Shown piece by piece: positions 16,257 through 23,337 of a DNA stretch of 46,765 nucleotides. Source of the DNA: Planctomycetota bacterium. Lineage in GTDB: Bacteria; Planctomycetota; Phycisphaerae; Sedimentisphaerales; Anaerobacaceae. A model generated the notes under the pieces. The model did no database searches. It was not told where the DNA came from and saw only the letters and a program-made list of their open reading frames with translations. The DNA is taken from NCBI GenBank assembly GCA_023481165.1, contig JAMCWO010000005.1, positions 1 through 46,765 on the forward strand, given 5' to 3'. Made by a program: the position numbers and the translations under genes. Position 1 is the first letter of the stretch, and each line of letters starts with the position of its first letter.

Positions 16257-16821
16257 CGGACCTCCTTACCGATTTACGATTTATTATTCCCTATCTACAA
16301 TTCACCATCCAGTTGCTTGGTTATCATACAAGCACCCCGGTGGATGGTCAAGCAAAATCTCCCGTAGTCCGGAATGTCCCCCGAGAGGACGGATGCCGGA
16401 GGACAGACGACGGACAACAGAGGACAGACTGGGAACCGGGAACTGACAACTGAGAACTGCTTTTCAACCGCAGATGAACGCCGATCATGCCATTGCGAGC
16501 GAAGCGCGGCAGTCTGCCGGTTTCTTACCGACTACAGACTACCGACAACCAGTTCTACACCACAGAGACACGGAGGCCACGGAGAAAGTCATAAATCGTA
16601 AATCATAAATCATCAATCCAAAGACTACCGACAACCGATTCCTCCTGGCTGGGTCGCTGGGGCAAAAGACAAAGGAAGTCCCGCCAGGGACGACAGCCTC
16701 GAAACACGCAAAACTCCGATGAACCGCGAAGGGGAAATGCACGGGGCAAGGAATAAATGGGGCGTTAGCGATGTGGGTTACTGGGACGACCGCGCAAACG
16801 GCCCATTCGATACGGCGGACA
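16257..16821 (-). other. 565-bp intergenic region made largely of short word repeats
   Basis: No gene is supported. It holds copies of several dispersed motifs: TGATTTACGATTTATTA-type words (16265-16285 and 16592-16617), GGACAGA-type words (about 16402-16432), an ATTGCGAGCGAAGCGCGG element (16491-16518), CGACTACCGACAACC-type words (16528-16555, 16622-16640), an ACACGGAGGCCACGGAG element (about 16559-16585), and a copy at 16651-16695 of a longer element found inverted at 18612-18663. Confidence 0.7.
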
Positions 16822-17742
16822 TCAGGACGTACGTTGATGAGTAGCGCGGAGGCGAGACAACTCCGGATCGAGATAAAGCACTGGTCGGGAAGGCTCAGGC
16901 TCCGTCTTCTCAAAGACTAATTCGGAGGAAGAGAATAGGCCAGAGTTCTCCGTCTTCAGTCTCCGAGCAGCCATCCGACAGTATTCCCGATCAATCTCCA
17001 CACCAATGCTGCTCCGGCCATTCTTCAAGGCGGCAACCATCGTTGTACCGGAGCCACAGAAAGGATCGAGGACCGTGTCGCCCGAGAAAGAGAACATGCG
17101 AACCAATCGAGTGGCAAGCTCGAGCGGGAATGGCGCAGGATGGCTCCGCGTGGAGGCCCCGGGGATGCTCCATATCTGCTGAAACCACTGATCGAAATCC
17201 TTTTTGTCGATCTTGCTCTTCTCCCGTTGGCCGTTCGTGGGCTGCCGGTATCCACCGGGCTTTCTTTGCATCAAGATGAACTCGATGTCATTCTTGATAA
17301 TCGCATTCGGCTCGTATGGCTTTCCTAGAAATTTAGAGCCGTTTGGCACCTCGTAGGAAGCGTTGGCAATCTTATGCCATATAATGGGGTTGAGGTTATC
17401 GAACCCCATCTTGCGGCAACGCACCGCGATGTCTGCGTGGAGAGGAAATACGAGGTGACGGCCGAACTCGCGCCTCGATACGCAGACGTCCCCCACCACG
17501 CAGACAAGACGCCCACCTGGTACGAGGACACGCAGGACGTGACGCCATACGCTTTCAAGTTCGCCTAAGAACGTCTCGTAGTCATTGATATGACCCAGTT
17601 GGCTGTCGTTCTCATTGTATCGCTTGAGATTCCAGTAGGGTGGCGAAGTGACCACGAGATGCACACTCTCGGTCGGGATGAAGGACAAGTCCCTTGCGTC
17701 GCCATTGATCAGCTTGTGCGTAGTTCCATCCATAGGCGCCAT
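16822..17742 (-). CDS. Type II DNA methyltransferase, SPPY class (likely N4-cytosine)
   Basis: A 306-residue methylase. The catalytic motif TSPPYWNLKRY lies at the N-terminus (about residues 32-42), and the SAM-binding motif DPFCGSGTT in the C-terminal third, giving the beta-class order. SPPY is typical of N4-cytosine methylases, whereas N6-adenine enzymes usually have DPPY/NPPY. The start (ATG 17742 or 17733) lies inside the end of the endonuclease gene, overlapping by 25-34 nt, so the pair is translationally linked. It protects host DNA from the neighbouring endonuclease. Target sequence is unknown. Confidence 0.92.
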   Translation of the reverse strand: MAPMDGTTHKLINGDARDLSFIPTESVHLVVTSPPYWNLKRYNENDSQLGHINDYETFLGELESVWRHVLRVLVPGGRLVCVVGDVCVSRREFGRHLVFPLHADIAVRCRKMGFDNLNPIIWHKIANASYEVPNGSKFLGKPYEPNAIIKNDIEFILMQRKPGGYRQPTNGQREKSKIDKKDFDQWFQQIWSIPGASTRSHPAPFPLELATRLVRMFSFSGDTVLDPFCGSGTTMVAALKNGRSSIGVEIDREYCRMAARRLKTENSGLFSSSELVFEKTEPEPSRPVLYLDPELSRLRATHQRTS

Positions 17743-18470
17743 GTGACCATGACCAGATGCCCGATCAGCGATCTGGCAAATCTCTCCATTGACAAATCCT
17801 CGGCAGGCGTCACGTAATCGCCGTTCTCACCGGTTGCCGCCTGCGAGGTTATGAATGCCGCCGAAATGTAGTGCCTCTCCAAAACGAGCTTGCGGCAGAA
17901 AAGCTCATAACGTCGTGCATAGGATGATCCGACGAATTCGGGGAAGACCTTGAAGTGAGGCTCCTTTACGCTTACTGGGTGACTGGAGGCGGGACAGTCT
18001 TCGAGCATGAAGAAATAGCCAAGGAATGGCTGGGGACTCGCAAGATAAGCGCCCTCCCGATAGGCGGTCCACAAGTCCAGGGCGCTGCCCATTGCCTCCT
18101 CAGTTCGATTATTGAAGTTGTTCCCGAAGGACGGGCCCACTTGGGACTTGGCTTCGATTGCCGCGATCAGGGTACCCTCCTTCACAATGACTAGGTCCCA
18201 CTCTTTGGTCGGTCGAAAGAACCCGGGCAATTCAAGGGTCCTCTCGCAGAAGAGGTATTCGCGTGAGACTCCTGCATCACAAATAAGACTCGTGAACAGG
18301 TGGATGAAACCATCCATCTGGGCTCCACCTGTCACGGCCCCCCTTAGGCCTTGGTCGAGCTTGCCCACTTGCTGTTGTCTCCGACGTTGGGCTGATCGAG
18401 TCCTCCAATAATGCGCCACCGCCTCGCGGGTGCGTGCATCAAGGTTCTGTAACGTCCTATTCTCCTGCAT
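17709..18470 (-). CDS. XhoI/PaeR7I-family type II restriction endonuclease
   Basis: About 253 residues. The central block KEWDLVIVKEGTLIAAIEAK followed by SQVGPSFGNNFNNRTEEA and GSALDLWTAYREG is characteristic of the XhoI/PaeR7I family; within it the Asp and the EAK triad form the PD-(D/E)XK metal site. Known members cut CTCGAG, but specificity here is not proven. The frame opens at 18584, yet ATG 18470 gives the length of PaeR7I (about 246). No SD precedes it; TATAAT ends about 8 nt before the ATG, so the message could be nearly leaderless. Stop lies inside the methylase gene. Confidence 0.88.
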   Translation of the reverse strand: MQENRTLQNLDARTREAVAHYWRTRSAQRRRQQQVGKLDQGLRGAVTGGAQMDGFIHLFTSLICDAGVSREYLFCERTLELPGFFRPTKEWDLVIVKEGTLIAAIEAKSQVGPSFGNNFNNRTEEAMGSALDLWTAYREGAYLASPQPFLGYFFMLEDCPASSHPVSVKEPHFKVFPEFVGSSYARRYELFCRKLVLERHYISAAFITSQAATGENGDYVTPAEDLSMERFARSLIGHLVMVTWRLWMELRTS

Positions 18471-20219
18471 GGGGAGGATTATATCAGATTCCGGCTGCCT
18501 ATCCAGATTCGTGATGAAGTAAGCGACCACACTCGGAGGGCGTGGGAGAAACCGGCGGACGCACCGCATTTGTTGACGCGCCAAGTATACTGTCGAAGCA
18601 ATCTCCTGGCGTGGCTCCCGAGAGTCCCGCCGGGACTGGTTTGGTTCTTTGCCCCGGTGTCCCGATCACTTCTTCGGTGCCGCGCAAGACAACCTCCCCG
18701 CTGGTACCCGTAAAGCGTTAAACGCCTCGGTCCCCGCAAAGGCCGGGCGGGGTCCATCCCGGTTCCTCTGCGGCGGAAGAGGCAGTAGCCGGTAGCCAGT
18801 AGTCGGTAGTCGGTAGTCTGTAATCGGTAGGCGGTCTGTCCTCTGCCCTCCGTCCTCTGTCCTCGATTCTCTGCGTTCTTGGCGTCTTGGCGCGAGATAG
18901 GTTCTGCTTGCGACCACGTTCGTGCAACAGTCGAAAAGGTAGAACACCCTGCGAGCCAGAAATTCTTTACTCCTTCCGGCACAAGGGGTTACGCGATTCA
19001 TGGATGTCACGCGTGCACAGAATTTCGGCACGATTCGTGCAACACGGCCCCTAGATGGGGGAACACTCTGCCCCGGGGCGGCCCCTCGGGTCTATGATTC
19101 ATGAAGTATGATTTATGATTGGAAAGCGGAAGCAAGAGTCGTCAGGACGCGAACGAGTTGAATTGCGGTTTGCGGATCATGTCATTGCGAGCGAAGCGCG
19201 GCAATCTGCCTTGCGGATCGAAGACAGAGTTGCGGCCGGGCCGCCCAGCCTGCGGCCTGCCGCCTCCGGCCCGCGCGGACCGTCTGTACAAACAAACCAA
19301 TTCGGCCCGGCTGGGCAGGGCTAGGTTCCAAGTGGACGAAAGATGCGAAACAAAGCCAAAAGGCGGTAGTCGGTAGTCAGTAGCCGGTAGGCAGTTGTAC
19401 AAACAGACCCAATTGGCCGGAGCGAATCATGCGAAACAAACCCAATTCTCAGTCGGGCCGGGCGGGAGGGGGCCACAGGAGCGCGGGACACAGGGCAATC
19501 GTGCGAAACGAAGCCAATTCTGCCGGCGGGCCCGGGACCATTTGTCAGACAAACCCAATTTGCCGGGTCGGTTGCGGCCCCGGAGGGCAAATGGGCGAGA
19601 CAAACCCAATTCGGCGATGGCCGGGTGGCGTCCAGGGAACGCAATGTGCAAAACGAACCCAATTGAGCAGAAGTGTGAAGTGTGCAGTTTGAGGTTTGAA
19701 GTGCGAAACAAAGCCAATTTCACCCCTGGATGGGCGGGTAAGCCGACGGCGGGCGCAATCGTGCGAAACAAACCCAATTGCCCGAAGTCGAGGACTCCGT
19801 CTACCTCGCCCCGGACCGCACGGCGCAATCGTGCGAAACAAACCCAATTGCCCGAAGCGGGGCACCGAGGCGGTGTCGGCCGTTATGGCCGTGGAGAGCT
19901 CCCATTATTCCACTATTCCATCATTCCACCATTCCAATCCCCCTGCCGATTGTACAAAACGAACCCAATTTCGCCGGTCGGGGTGCGGCCGCAGAAGGCG
20001 AAACGCGCAAAACGAACCCAATTTCTGCCGACGGGACCGACCATACGAAACGAACCCAATTTCCGCCATGGCGAACGACCCCCGAGGGCGGGGGTCCTAC
20101 ATGGACGGCAGCAGGCTTTTTCGCTTGCCCCAGCGGGCGGGGGCCGGGATAATGCTGCCTCAATGGGGCCTTGGCGAAGGGGTTGGAGGCCTGAAAGACA
20201 CAGTGTTGGAGAATGACAG
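18471..20219 (+). other. 1.75-kb non-coding, repeat-rich region
   Basis: No gene is supported: long open frames here change with strand and encode only translated repeats. The first part (18471-19280) holds word repeats: 18612-18663 (inverted partner of 16651-16695), GTAGTCGGTAGTC-type words at 18784-18835, GTCCTCTG-type words at 18836-18868, TTCTTGGCGTCTTGGCG at about 18875-18893, ATGATTTATGATT words at 19094-19118, and the GCGAGCGAAGCGCGG element at 19183-19210. The rest is the AACCCAATT array described separately. Confidence 0.75.
19283..20062 (+). repeat. Array of about 14 degenerate repeats, core C(A/G)AACCCAATT
   Basis: Direct repeats with consensus GTGCGAAACAAACCCAATT occur at about 19285, 19344, 19396, 19429, 19500, 19541, 19590, 19643, 19701, 19762, 19832, 19952, 20008 and 20043. 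The 5' part alternates between TGCGAAAC and TGTACAAA; the AACCCAATT core is best kept. Spacing varies from 33 to 120 nt and the intervening DNA is GC-rich and mostly unique, except that two copies (19762, 19832) share about 35 nt including flanks. All copies point the same way. It is not a CRISPR because repeats are degenerate and spacers irregular. The array ends about 160 bp before the YXWGXW gene. Confidence 0.85.
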
Positions 20220-21818
20220 ATGAGACTTGCCGTCATCATGATGATGCTGGTTTGGGCTGCCGGTCCGCTCTATGCTCAGAATCCGGACCAGCCGCCGCCT
20301 ACGCCGGAACAGGAGCAGCCTGAAGTTCTCACCAGCGGGCCGGTGCACGAGGCCTTTGCGGAACCTGTCAATCTGGAGCCTCAGGCGGGCCTGGTGGTCT
20401 CGGACGAGCCGCCGGCCCAGATCCAGGAAGTCCCACCGGACGAGAAGCCGGCCGGCACGCAGTTCGTCTGGGTGCCGGGCTACTGGGCCTGGGATGCGAG
20501 CCGCCATGGCTATATCTGGGTCAGCGCCTGCTGGCGGGCTGCGCCGCCTAAGACATACTGGGTCCCGGGCTACTGGGCCCGCGTGCCCGAGGGCTGGGAG
20601 TGGATTCCCGGCTTCTGGGCCCCGGTCGCCAATCAGAAGATCGACTATCTCCCCGCCCCGCCGGAGATTGAAGACTTGGACCCGTCCGGTCTGCCGCCGT
20701 CTCCGGACGATATCTGGGTGCCGCCCTGCCACTATTGGTACGAGGGGCACTACATCCTGCGCTCCGGGTACTGGCTCCACGGGCAGCCAGGCTGGATCTG
20801 GATCCCGTCGCACTATACCTGGACGCCGCGTGGCTATGTCTTCGTGCCGGGGCACTGGGACTACGCGCTGGACCGCCGCGGCGTGCTGTTCGCGCCGGTT
20901 TACTTCCCGCATCACATCCACAGGCGGCCGGGATTCTCCTATCGGCTCAGCATTGTCGTCGATCTCGGCGTGTTGCGGGTCAACCTGTTCACCTATCCGC
21001 GCTACAGCCACTATTGCTTTGGGGATTGGTATGACGACGCTTTCCTCCGCATCGGCATCTACCCCCGCTGGGAGAGCGAGCGAATTCGCGTATGTTATGA
21101 CCCCATCTACCGTTATGACCGCTGGCGGCACATCAGGACCGATGCTCATTGGGTAGAGAACGAGCGTCACCAGTACGACCTCCGCCGGGCGGATCGGAAT
21201 CTTCGCCCGCCGCGCACCTATCACGAGATGGAGGTCCGGGAGGCCAAGCTGCCCGAGCTGCAACGGCGGAATCTGCAGATCGCTCGGCCCCTGAACCGGG
21301 TCATCGCCCGCCAAACGACACCGCTGAAGTTTGAGCCGGTCAGCAGTAGCGAGCAGAAGAGGATCACGCGGCAGACGACCGAGGTGCGCAAGTTCGGCAA
21401 CGAACGCGTTCGCTGGGAATCGCCGGCCACCAGCCGCAGGACGATTCCGCCGCTGGCGAAACGCCAGGAGGCCGCGAAGCCATCCGCCGAGCATAAGGAG
21501 CCGACGGTCGGGGCGCCGGAGCGAAAGGCCCCTGTAAATCCGCCCACGGCATCGACGTCCACAGAGCGCAAAGTTGCAGGCCCGGCGCCGGCGGAGCACG
21601 CGCCACCGTTCGTTTCCCCCCGCGACCTGCACGTGACCAAGCCGGAGAGTGTGAGAATCCCCCGGCCGCCGATCATCGGCCGAGCGGTCACGCCCGGCAG
21701 CCAAGAGGTTGGCACGCCGTCCAACCCCACGGCGGAGCGGCAGAGCCCGCGCGATCTCAAGGGCAGAGGCGCGGAGAGAAGCAGGAACAAAGGAAAGGAC
21801 GAAGAAAGAGCCCGATAG
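20220..21818 (+). CDS. Secreted YXWGXW/WVPGYW-repeat protein
   Basis: A 532-residue protein with a signal peptide (MRLAVIMMMLVWAAGPLYA, cleavage about residue 19). It then has aromatic tandem motifs: WVPGYWAWDA, WVPGYWARVPEGW, WIPGFWAPV, later WIPSHYTWTPRGYVFVPGHW. The middle resembles a compact Tyr/Trp-rich domain; the C-terminal 200 residues are low-complexity, Pro/Arg/Lys-rich. Proteins with these repeats are frequent in Planctomycetota and proteobacteria, and are envelope-associated with no known function. ATG has GGAG 8-9 nt upstream. A 514-residue open frame on the other strand is a shadow. It is transcribed alone, convergent with the second HPF. Confidence 0.8.
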   Translation: MRLAVIMMMLVWAAGPLYAQNPDQPPPTPEQEQPEVLTSGPVHEAFAEPVNLEPQAGLVVSDEPPAQIQEVPPDEKPAGTQFVWVPGYWAWDASRHGYIWVSACWRAAPPKTYWVPGYWARVPEGWEWIPGFWAPVANQKIDYLPAPPEIEDLDPSGLPPSPDDIWVPPCHYWYEGHYILRSGYWLHGQPGWIWIPSHYTWTPRGYVFVPGHWDYALDRRGVLFAPVYFPHHIHRRPGFSYRLSIVVDLGVLRVNLFTYPRYSHYCFGDWYDDAFLRIGIYPRWESERIRVCYDPIYRYDRWRHIRTDAHWVENERHQYDLRRADRNLRPPRTYHEMEVREAKLPELQRRNLQIARPLNRVIARQTTPLKFEPVSSSEQKRITRQTTEVRKFGNERVRWESPATSRRTIPPLAKRQEAAKPSAEHKEPTVGAPERKAPVNPPTASTSTERKVAGPAPAEHAPPFVSPRDLHVTKPESVRIPRPPIIGRAVTPGSQEVGTPSNPTAERQSPRDLKGRGAERSRNKGKDEERAR

Positions 21819-21915: not shown

Positions 21916-22251
21916 CTAACCGACCGTTATGCCATAAGCCACCGCCGGCTTGGGGGTGTGCTTTCTGTTTCTCCTGCTTTTGGCTCTGGATGAGTTGCGC
22001 TCCAGGTCGCGCGTGGCCCGGTTGATCGAGCCATAGGCATTGTCCGCGGTCTCCTGGGCAACGAAGCGATGCCTCTTCTTGCCGCTGGCGATGATCCGGG
22101 CGATCGCCGAGCCGTTGGTTCCGCGGCGAAGCGTCACCGTTACATCGTCAAGGTTATGATAGTACTTGGCCAGGCTGGTAGCCTTTTGGGCCACGTACGC
22201 TTTGAAGTCGCTGGAGATTTTGACATTCTGCCCGCTGATTCTTAGAAGCAT
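21916..22251 (-). CDS. HPF/RaiA-like ribosome-associated protein (paralogue 2)
   Basis: About 111 residues with the HPF fold: LLRISGQNVKISSDFKAYV, ATSLAKYYHNLDDVTVTLRR, then DNAYGSINRATRDLERNSSRA with a basic, Lys/Arg/Ser-rich tail. The tail differs from that of paralogue 1, so binding behaviour may differ. ATG 22251 has GGAGGTG 6 nt upstream and is preferred to the earlier GTG. It lies 18 nt after a 28-codon ORF with its own strong SD. Role in hibernation is inferred from the family. Confidence 0.85.
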   Translation of the reverse strand: MLLRISGQNVKISSDFKAYVAQKATSLAKYYHNLDDVTVTLRRGTNGSAIARIIASGKKRHRFVAQETADNAYGSINRATRDLERNSSRAKSRRNRKHTPKPAVAYGITVG

Positions 22252-22269
22252 CGATAGCACCTCCACTGG

Positions 22270-22356
22270 TTAGAAAGACATCCCGTTGAAGCGCGAAAAC
22301 TGAATAAGAAACACCGGAAGGAACAAAGGGCCTGCCATAGAAGCGAATCTAAACAT
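22270..22356 (-). CDS. Small ORF (28 aa) upstream of the second HPF
   Basis: An ATG with CAGGAGG 8-9 nt upstream opens 28 codons encoding a hydrophobic peptide (MFRFASMAGPLFLPVF, then LIQFSRFNGMSF). It ends 18 nt before the hpf-like start. It could be a leader peptide or a small membrane protein. No homologue is recognised. The SD and position are the only support. Confidence 0.4.
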   Translation of the reverse strand: MFRFASMAGPLFLPVFLIQFSRFNGMSF

Positions 22357-22498
22357 GCGTCGAATCCTCCTGTGACACAGGTGGAATCAGAAACTCAACA
22401 TGCATCTTCTACAAGTTAAGATACGGCCGAGCCGACTTTCGGGTTCACAGCCCGGACAGCAGGACTCCCTAAGTGTCTCCACCACAAGGGTTTACGTA

Positions 22499-22513
22499 CG
22501 CACGGTCCGTGCG
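22499..22513. other. Perfect 7+7 palindrome (CGCACGG-N-CCGTGCG)
   Basis: A near-continuous palindrome just past the stop of the MntP remnant. With a 1-nt centre it is more like a dimer-binding site than a terminator hairpin; no T-run follows on either strand. Confidence 0.4.
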
Positions 22514-22516
22514 ATT

Positions 22517-22636
22517 TCACGCCGTGAGATGCTCGATGACGATCTTGACGCCGATGGCGATGAGGATGAGGATGAGCCCGCCGACGATCTCGACGTTGCT
22601 CTCGAAGAAATGGCCGAAGCGTTTGCCGAGGGTCAC
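22517..22636 (-). CDS. 39-residue MntP C-terminal remnant coupled to the Mn exporter gene
   Basis: GTG overlaps the TGA of the GDT1-like gene (GTGA), with AAGGA just upstream. The product (TLGKRFGHFFESNVEIVGG, then LILILIAIGVKIVIEHLTA) matches the C-terminal end of MntP-type Mn2+ efflux pumps: GK-FG, E-x-GG and a last membrane helix ending IEHL. The rest of mntP is absent; upstream DNA encodes GDT1 in another frame. It is either a deletion scar that still happens to be translatable or a retained mini-protein. Frame is intact over all 39 codons. Confidence 0.6.
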   Translation of the reverse strand: MTLGKRFGHFFESNVEIVGGLILILIAIGVKIVIEHLTA

Positions 22637-23337
22637 TGCTTCCTTGTCAGGCGGGCGACAAGCCACATGGCGAAGAGGACCGCCGGGACAGCGGCGATCA
22701 AGATCCCGTGATACCAGGGAGAATTCGGGGGCAACAACTCATCCAGAGCATCATGCAAGCCCAGCAGTCCAAAGCCCGCGAAACCACAGGCCGCGATCCA
22801 TTTGACCAACCTCTCGGGAATATGTCGATGAAGAACAATGCCGACGACAATGCCGATGCCGTCAGCGATCAGCATCCCAGTGGTGGTCCCCATCCAGACA
22901 GGCACGATCTGTCGGGCTTTGACGATCCAACCTGCGCCGCCGACCTTTACCGCTTGCTCGGCGGCCAAGGCAATCGTCATCAACTGGGTCTTGTCGCCCA
23001 TTTCCGCCAGAAAGAAGGCGACAGCGACCGTCCAGAAGGCACTTCGTCCCTGGCGCTGGTCTTCCCCTTCCAGCTCGTCACCCCGGACGGTCCACAGGGC
23101 GAAGGCGATGAACGAGGCGCCCGCCGCCAGCTTGATCCAGGCGATGGGCAGAAACTGCGTGGCGACGTTCCCGACAGCCACGGCCAGCAGATGATTGGCA
23201 AGCGTGGCCCCGAACACCGCCCAAAGAACGGTCTGCCAGCGGAAACGGCTCGCAAACGCCATGGCCAGCAATTGCGTTTTGTCGCCCATTTCCGCCAACA
23301 CAACGGCGACCATCGCCAGCAAAAATGCACTGATCAA
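22633..23337 (-). CDS. GDT1/TMEM165 (UPF0016) family Mn2+/Ca2+ exporter
   Basis: A 234-residue six-helix membrane protein. The diagnostic E-x-G-D-K-T motif occurs twice, in FLLAMVAVVLAEMGDKTQLL (near residue 18) and FFLAEMGDKTQLMT (near residue 113), as expected for the internally duplicated family, which exports Mn2+ in bacteria. The start is TTG with AAAGGAG 7 nt upstream. No yybP-ykoY-like leader is possible, since the metallophosphoesterase gene ends 41 nt upstream. It overlaps the MntP remnant in a GTGA. Confidence 0.93.
   Translation of the reverse strand: MISAFLLAMVAVVLAEMGDKTQLLAMAFASRFRWQTVLWAVFGATLANHLLAVAVGNVATQFLPIAWIKLAAGASFIAFALWTVRGDELEGEDQRQGRSAFWTVAVAFFLAEMGDKTQLMTIALAAEQAVKVGGAGWIVKARQIVPVWMGTTTGMLIADGIGIVVGIVLHRHIPERLVKWIAACGFAGFGLLGLHDALDELLPPNSPWYHGILIAAVPAVLFAMWLVARLTRKQ

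Follow-up and report, generated by a model that had tools for sequence, protein, structure and literature searches.

Gene-free arrays in a planctomycete genome whose modules appear to be shuffled by exchange inside a 14-letter site, in the manner of integron cassettes

Introduction

The described systems closest to the arrays considered here are the neisserial intergenic mosaic elements (NIMEs), which are built of dRS3 and RS repeats, and the cassette arrays of integrons. NIMEs are described as a short constant repeat, occurring in hundreds of copies, that alternates with families of 30-160 bp modules; a role in recombination and in the insertion of genes has been proposed for the resulting intergenic arrays of hundreds of bases (PMC3898611, PMC9778887). 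Integron cassettes without an ORF exist (PMC6557892). Other classes of short repeats include the REP/BIME elements, which are intergenic, high in copy number, and composite (PMC2817692), and heptameric repeats (PMC4692102).

The window, that is, the whole 46.8-kb stretch of DNA analysed here, carries an array in which a short core alternates with modules of varying sequence. No description of this element was found in the open-access literature among the matches listed. The gene-free stretches that share the core appear, on the present analysis, to be made of blocks shuffled by exchange inside a 14-letter site, as are the cassettes of integrons. The preferred interpretation, to which slightly less than an even chance is given, is that of one-way mosaic cassette arrays which would exchange modules at a strict core with the help of a dedicated recombinase.

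The Array of the Window

Fourteen copies of the core, all on the + strand, lie at 19290-20061 of the window. With at most one mismatch to the nine-letter core AACCCAATT, 13 matches are found at 19294-20061, all on the + strand, and only three more elsewhere in the 46.8-kb window; the 16 observed compare with 5.9 expected, and 0 of 100 shuffles reached 16. The sequence-only reading had counted about 14 one-way copies, which corresponds to these 13 and the degenerate copy AAACAAAGCCAAAA at 19348. The array opens with a degenerate first core, AAACAAACCAATT, which is one C short (19290..19302, +) and stands 58 nt ahead of the second copy. The latter is the degenerate AAACAAAGCCAAAA (19348..19361, +), the final bases of which are probably part of the GGCGGTAG module. 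Core copies then follow on the same strand at 19401..19414 (AAACAGACCCAATT), 19434..19447, 19506..19519 (with G at position 7), 19547..19560, 19598..19611, 19651..19664, 19706..19719 (again with G at position 7), 19766..19779, 19836..19849, 19957..19970, 20010..20023, and 20048..20061; the start codon of the downstream gene is 158 nt further on from this last copy.

Among the 13 copies from 19348 on, the start-to-start distance is 33-121 nt (33-120 nt had been claimed for copies of the same orientation), and the modules between them measure 19-107 nt. The 5′ part of the core alternates between TGCGAAAC, TGTACAAA, and TGTGCAAAAC, so that the switching noted earlier is real. A CRISPR, which the sequence-only reading had also discounted, is not compatible with the variable spacing of 33-121 nt and with spacers that recur.

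Several modules of the array, all read on the + strand, belong to families found in the arrays of this genome. The module at 19362..19400 is of family 12 (3 members in 37 arrays) and consists of heptamer-type GGTAGTC repeats; those at 19448..19505 and 19561..19597 are of families 0 (28 members) and 5 (8 members), respectively. Family 8 (5 members), with GTTTGAA-type repeats, is represented at 19665..19705, and family 2 (11 members), with GCCCGAAGCGGGGCACCGAGGCGG and ATTCCA repeats, at 19850..19956.

On the 5′ side, the array is preceded by a block of ~220 nt (18925..19142, +), here called the 5′ block, and further 5′ by repeat modules of heptamer and TCCTCTG/CTTGGCG type (18780..18900, +). The adjacent type II restriction-modification unit comprises a DNA methyltransferase (PF01555; 16822..17742, −) and an XhoI-type restriction endonuclease (PF04555, E 2e-90; 17709..18584, −). 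Left of this unit, degenerate repeats (GACTACC and ATTTATG heptamers, GGACAGA runs) are present at 16398-16620 of the window. By eye, they resemble the reverse complement of the 18780-18900 repeats, as though islands of imperfect inverted repeats enclosed the XhoI-type unit. A CATTGCGAGCGAAGCGCGGCA repeat, of a type known from other bacteria, is present twice, at 16491-16511 and 19183-19203. On the 3′ side, a sigma70-like promoter, TTGCCC-N17-GATAAT (20125..20153, +), was recognized by eye in the gap between the array and the downstream WXXGXW-repeat gene (20220..21818, +). Genes for an S30AE ribosome-associated protein and a GDT1 transporter lie at 21916-23337, between the WXXGXW gene and a metallophosphoesterase gene; neither had a match in the collinear stretch of G007, a congener.

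Distribution and Orientation of the Core

The genome which holds the window (G000; 6.05 Mb, 86.8% complete) contains 477 copies of the 14-nt core AAACRAASCCAATT, against 0 for the reversed control. For the nine-letter core, 317 copies are found genome-wide and 1 for the reversed control; the sequence-only reading had named a core frequency elsewhere in the genome no higher than expected as a result that would count against it, and this is not what is observed. In 168 copies with at most one mismatch, taken from the window and 20 loci, 12 of the 14 positions are conserved at 0.90 or above, and the flanks vary. The two other positions are binary, with A or G at position 4 and C or G at position 7 (counted from 0). 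In these copies, no T was seen immediately before the core and no A immediately after it.

The copy number of the core ranges from 0 to hundreds among relatives. The genomes compared here are probably metagenome assemblies, and a residual share of chimeric joins, which would count against the preferred reading, may be present in them. AAACRAACCCAATT is present in 37 of 61 relatives, G000 included: it was found in 33 of the 37 genomes of its own family and in 4 of the 24 from the rest of the order (Sedimentisphaerales, within the Phycisphaerae of the Planctomycetota). The 14-letter core has any match in 30 of 198 genomes of the class. The highest counts are in the same family (477, 101, 87, and 50 copies), one genome of another family of the order has 33, and the maximum outside the order is 13. 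At least 34 of 67 named public stretches carry two or more exact cores; among the matches listed, 33 of 34 such stretches are from Planctomycetota, mostly Phycisphaerae/Sedimentisphaerales, and one is from Armatimonadetes. A viral origin was considered and rejected: 34 viral contigs match a 17-nt core pattern, but each fetched stretch has exactly one exact core, and no viral arrays were found among these contigs matched by the one pattern. In the G009 loci L225-L244, the cores are accompanied by 10-11-nt tandem runs (CAAACCCAAT, ACAAAGCCAAT), a spacing of about one helical turn.

A sample of 41 loci of G000 was examined, covering 657 kb of the 6.05 Mb (73% called coding, by a home-made gene caller). 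Nearly all of these loci were picked for a listed core or 5′ block, the core places being taken from 100 of the 317 AACCCAATT places and the block places from at most 19 scored matches per genome, so that the sample represents the arrays at these places. They contain 37 arrays of at least two core copies and 288 core copies with at most one mismatch, only one of which is solitary and 4 of which are inside called genes. Cores on the opposite strand within 500 nt are absent from all 37 arrays. Outside G000, such cores occur in 3 of 102 loci with at least two exact cores, namely, L054 and L098, which are public contigs, and L277, which is from G005. In L279 (G004), cores of opposite orientation are close together once one mismatch is allowed. 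These exceptions to one-way order count against the preferred reading. The 5′ block is found 5′ of 16 of the first 20 arrays, on the same strand every time, with matches of 74-83% identity over at least 146 nt among those listed. Long matches to it are confined to G000 among the 41 genomes searched, with at most 19 matches per genome scored.

As 28 of the 37 arrays point toward a same-strand gene start and several end, by eye, just upstream of a promoter-like site, the copies could be gene-specific cis-regulatory sites for downstream promoters. This explanation is highly improbable. The orientation toward gene starts is seen mainly because 20 of the 29 arrays with both flanks called sit between divergent genes; outside divergent regions, array and gene are oriented alike in 8 cases and oppositely in 9. 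Furthermore, 34 of 37 regions upstream of orthologues of six array-bearing genes in eight congeners are without a copy (some of these regions end at contig edges), and the downstream genes have no obvious common function.

Module Families and Their Order

The 37 arrays of G000 were cut at the cores into 242 spacers, which were compared all against all by BLAST, and module families were defined as single-linkage clusters of matches covering at least half of the longer spacer. In this way, 156 spacers fall into 25 families and 86 stand alone. The spacer DNA, earlier described as unique, is so within the window; genome-wide, these 156 of 242 have relatives. Degenerate runs of heptamers such as GGTAGTC, GGATTGC, and CTCCTGA make up some of the modules. 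The most widespread module (family 1) lies between cores that are 85-101 nt apart and is recognizable in genomes of other families.

The relatives of array spacers lie nearly all in other arrays. Fourteen families were tabulated; over the 657 kb, the 12 largest account for a total of two copies that lie outside arrays, and a family of three members for three. Both partners come from a single array in only 10 of 359 homologous spacer pairs, against 10.2 expected, so that local duplication was rejected as the source of the copies, a single such event having been the other outcome that the sequence-only reading held against itself. Homologous modules are followed by homologous right neighbours in 5 of 211 cases (2.6 expected) and preceded by homologous left neighbours in 5 of 241, where 3.0 are expected. 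Inverted pairs are absent among the 359, and this doubles as a control for false matches. Modules in G000 therefore occur as cassettes in one direction and in near-random order.

Shuffling is strong in G000 and weaker in G007, for which the sample is smaller. The 24 arrays of G007 yielded 83 spacers, 16 of which have a relative in G000, and no inverted homologous pairs. Order is partly retained in this genome, with homologous right neighbours in 7 of 22 cases and left neighbours in 7 of 21, against 0.3 expected each, and the two members share an array in 8 of 42 homologous pairs, against 1.9 expected. These figures tell against the preferred reading.

Module movement itself is deduced from this shuffling; neither an excised or circular cassette nor a high-identity pair of before and after states was seen. 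It has also been considered that each module could be a short non-autonomous mobile element which carries the core and inserts at existing cores. Such landing elements would explain the one-way nesting, the module borders at cores, the near absence of modules outside arrays, and a copy number that varies from 0 to hundreds among relatives, and they fit the present data as well as the preferred exchange of cassettes does. They are nevertheless rather unlikely, as at least 25 different elements sharing one end are needed, and terminal inverted repeats or target duplications were not noticed in the stretches read. The earlier suggestion of a mobile element that lands on itself accordingly keeps the part in which modules are spread as if moved, with borders at cores, and loses the part in which a single element is responsible, since at least 25 families are present.

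Position of Exchange inside the Core

Cassette exchange at the core, the preferred reading, can be examined at the borders of homologous modules. On the mean of 349 between-array homologous pairs, the end of the left core is followed at once by a rise of identity from background to that of the module, and the end of the right core by a drop back. Core variants locate the exchange more closely. Position 7 of the right core is linked to the preceding module (0.71 vs 0.50, p 0.001), and no significant link exists between position 7 of the left core and the following module (p 0.06). Conversely, position 13 of the left core is linked to the following module (0.88 vs 0.73, p 0.001), and position 13 of the right core has no significant link to the preceding one (p 0.53). 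Two families illustrate the pattern: in family 1, the right core has A/G at positions 4/7 in 27 of 27 cases and the left core is mixed, and in family 3, the left core has AC at positions 12-13 in 10 of 11 cases and positions 4/7 are mixed. These linkages place the exchange most likely between core positions 7 and 12, which is the CCAA part. Position 4 of the left core is also linked to the following module (p 0.002), which counts against a single sharp crossover, since such a crossover does not predict it. The same test in G007, where there is little core variation, gave nothing significant.

On the preferred reading, a cassette would consist of a non-coding module of ~20-130 nt together with the core after it, and cassettes would pass between arrays in one orientation by crossing over within the CCAA letters. 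The recombination site would be the strict core, held matched both to its partner cores and to a putative trans-acting recombinase.

Passive recombination would provide an explanation without a dedicated enzyme, in which homologous or microhomology exchange takes place among hundreds of short repeats and repeated conversion keeps the core uniform. In this regard, the exchange sits exactly where identity peaks, and shuffling is less pronounced in the smaller G007 sample. RecA probably needs longer identity than the core offers, and the 14-26 nt available here are short for it. The absence of inverted pairs, the fixed orientation, and the two frequent binary core positions are not obvious outcomes of drift. 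Passive recombination is considered unlikely, and it ranks second to the preferred reading.

Neighbouring Genes and Lineage-Specific Inserts

The two ends of the arrays differ in their neighbours. Genes for restriction, toxin-antitoxin, or transposase functions adjoin the 5′ side of 9 of 29 arrays of G000 and the 3′ side of 0 of 37 (Fisher 2.7e-4); the 5′ count becomes 11 of 29 with an RHS gene and a nucleotidyltransferase included. The restriction-modification neighbour of the window array, to which the sequence-only reading had drawn attention, fits this pattern of defence and mobile genes. On the 3′ side, all 37 genes were scanned, 30 at 1e-10 (9 without a match were redone at 1e-6), the window gene, and six at 1e-6, and 7 genes without a family were counted as negative. 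On the 5′ side, 28 of 29 genes were scanned at 1e-6, 8 of them being without a family; for the window, the restriction-modification genes took the place of a spurious first called ORF. The count leaves out an IS30-like tail recognized by eye in L245.

Three arrays are located at the edge of lineage-specific inserts, at tex and gspE in G000 and, together with an Eco57I-type gene, in G023. At the tex locus of G000, an insert of ~7.8 kb separates tex from a MoxR-type gene (named by eye) and contains a sulfatase gene, a laminin-G-type gene, BrnTA, the 5′ block, and the array. The corresponding interval is a few hundred bases in G002 and G008, and G007 has its own insert with an oppositely directed array. 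At gspE, a gap of 4.4 kb in G000 stands against 126 nt in G007, corresponding to an insert of about 4.3 kb. The G023 insert, ~4.1 kb, consists of the array and an Eco57I-type restriction-methylase gene.

With regard to the window, its left and right gene blocks are on different contigs of G007, and the array and restriction unit are at the break. The right block, with the WXXGXW gene, is collinear in G007, where no core is present in the 10.1 kb read; in the left block, a two-copy array of G007 precedes the DUF362 gene.

Most of the arrays that were compared do not occupy orthologous positions. For the pair G023/G204, the flanks of 11 loci were queried, and 9 were matched and compared (L027 and L030 were without a match). 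The element is kept at the orthologous place in 2 of the 9 loci, which tells against the preferred reading, and absent in 7. Among these 7, conserved sequence is closest on the 3′ side of the array in 6 loci, at a distance of 42-239 nt (with a weak, paralogue-like match in one of the six), and on the 5′ side in the remaining locus. On the preferred reading, the arrays would also be markers of lineage-specific DNA taken up on their 5′ side, and they may favour this uptake, with accessory genes entering by way of the arrays.

Coding Capacity, Folding, and Transcription

The array had been judged not coding, and this holds as far as tested: the core copies of the window fall in mixed reading frames, and for the most widespread module there is, for each frame, some genome in which it is interrupted by stops. 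By frame, stops are present in 10, 9, and 5 of 15 copies in G000 and in 8, 6, and 12 of 20 named copies. A small peptide was rejected, for one frame is open in 15 of 16 copies of G023, yet every frame has stops in part of the other copies. The variation of this module in the G023 copies has no third-position excess.

An alternative that concerns RNA is that the arrays are transcribed and act through AAACRAASCCAAUU sites which bind protein or RNA, shuffling being a side effect. Promoter-like sites on the same strand are consistent with it in some genomes. In G042, a promoter resembling TTGACA-N17-TATAAT precedes the first core by 135-383 nt in 16 of 20 elements, as compared with 5 of 20 on the other strand and 1.4 in shuffles. 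In G007, such a site is present at 126-256 nt in 3 of 3 distinct loci and in 8 of 21 further arrays (shuffles 0.5), but the other strand of these further arrays scores nearly as often (6 of 21). The corresponding figures for the same and the other strand are 2 vs 5 of 37 in G000, 6 vs 3 of 21 in G023, 4 vs 2 of 12 in G204, and 3 vs 5 of 24 in G009, and they count against an RNA role. In favour of an RNA role, a four-codon ORF, MPSG plus stop, is kept after a similar promoter and leader in three G204 loci (L287, L293, L297), in two of them after GGAG. In the G042 loci L205-L224, several leaders after a strong promoter have GGCCATCTTGGCC and GGGCATCTTGCCC palindromes, followed by a Shine-Dalgarno-like site and a short ORF, which is not the same from copy to copy.

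Folding argues against this RNA alternative. For the alignment of the most widespread module, 61 copies were gathered and reduced to 51 by removal of 9 outliers and identical copies, and no consensus fold was found over these 51 sequences; relative to column shuffles, its subsets from G000 and G023 are lower by 1.1 and 1.6 sd, respectively. For 223 modules taken without the core, folding hardly exceeds that of shuffles (mean z −0.27). A structured RNA in the 5′ block was rejected, as in the consensus of −10.7 kcal/mol 0 of 19 pairs show a two-sided change that preserves pairing. Rfam at gathering scores found nothing in the window. Arrays acting chiefly as RNA are very unlikely, slightly more so in view of the near-equal strand scores of the further G007 arrays, and an RNA role of any kind is weakly plausible. 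The earlier proposal of protein or RNA sites is weakened by the missing conserved fold and, for gene-specific sites, by the 34 of 37 regions without a copy; a role independent of any single gene may still apply.

Relation to Known Systems and Candidate Movers

The arrays resemble NIMEs in that families of short modules alternate with a constant repeat in intergenic DNA (25 families in 37 arrays, 4 of 288 cores in genes). They differ in several respects. The dRS3 repeat of NIMEs is 20 bp long with inverted ends, ATTCCC(N8)GGGAAT, whereas the core is 14 nt, non-palindromic, and one-way in G000; the dRS3 pattern occurs only 5 times in 657 kb of G000, and the modules, by the way they were cut, are bounded by the AAACRAASCCAATT-type core. 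Neisseria belongs to a different phylum. In addition, exchange is here mapped inside the core, and one array end tends to adjoin conserved DNA.

The likeness to integrons lies in one-way cassette arrays, a recombination site ending each cassette, shuffling, accessory genes nearby, and a promoter-like site which, in part of the genomes, precedes the array. Integrons typically comprise one or few arrays per genome, whereas dozens are present here; the core, by eye, has no inverted repeat, and its cassettes are short and without sign of coding. An integron integrase (TIGR02249 above the curated cut-off) is not found in G000, which is 86.8% complete. Among the 61 genomes, 5 are positive (G002, G020, G030, G032, and G034), and G034 has the integrase yet 0 copies of AAACRAACCCAATT. 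Weak matches to the model are present in 61 of 61 genomes and 14 of 14 controls.

REP/BIME elements are likewise intergenic, high-copy, and composite; BIMEs are palindromic and alternate in orientation, whereas no inverted pairs are found here. Some modules are degenerate heptamer runs as in cyanobacterial STRR-type repeats, although such runs are limited to some modules. Cyanobacterial STRRs are heptameric and are not known to have a strict core.

RAYT (PF01797) had no match in five core-bearing genomes, G009, G010, G019, G022, and G027, three of which are less than 86% complete, and reverse transcriptase (PF00078) had none in the incomplete genomes G000, G009, G010, G011, G017, G019, and G023. 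RAYT/IS200, reverse transcriptase (RVT_1), and integron integrase were therefore rejected as movers, as none of these three enzyme families tracks the element, a result that favours passive recombination.

The best reading is that the element behaves like NIMEs and integron arrays and belongs to neither, because it is without a dRS3 boundary, without an integron integrase above the cut-off in G000, and without sign of coding in its cassettes. A more specific version, in which the arrays would constitute a distributed coding-free integron with its own recombinase, an asymmetric 14-bp site, dozens of arrays, and 5′ ends serving as entry points for restriction-modification, toxin-antitoxin, and other accessory genes, is doubtful but deserves consideration.

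Conclusions

Intergenic repeat islands of this kind are easily overlooked in metagenome assemblies of planctomycetes. As the exchange window is predicted to within a few bases, the idea of cassette exchange at the core is directly testable. If it is true, it would provide a second, independent case beside Neisseria for the origin of mosaic repeat arrays, and the cassette arrays would be a genome-wide platform for rearrangement and gene uptake in this lineage.
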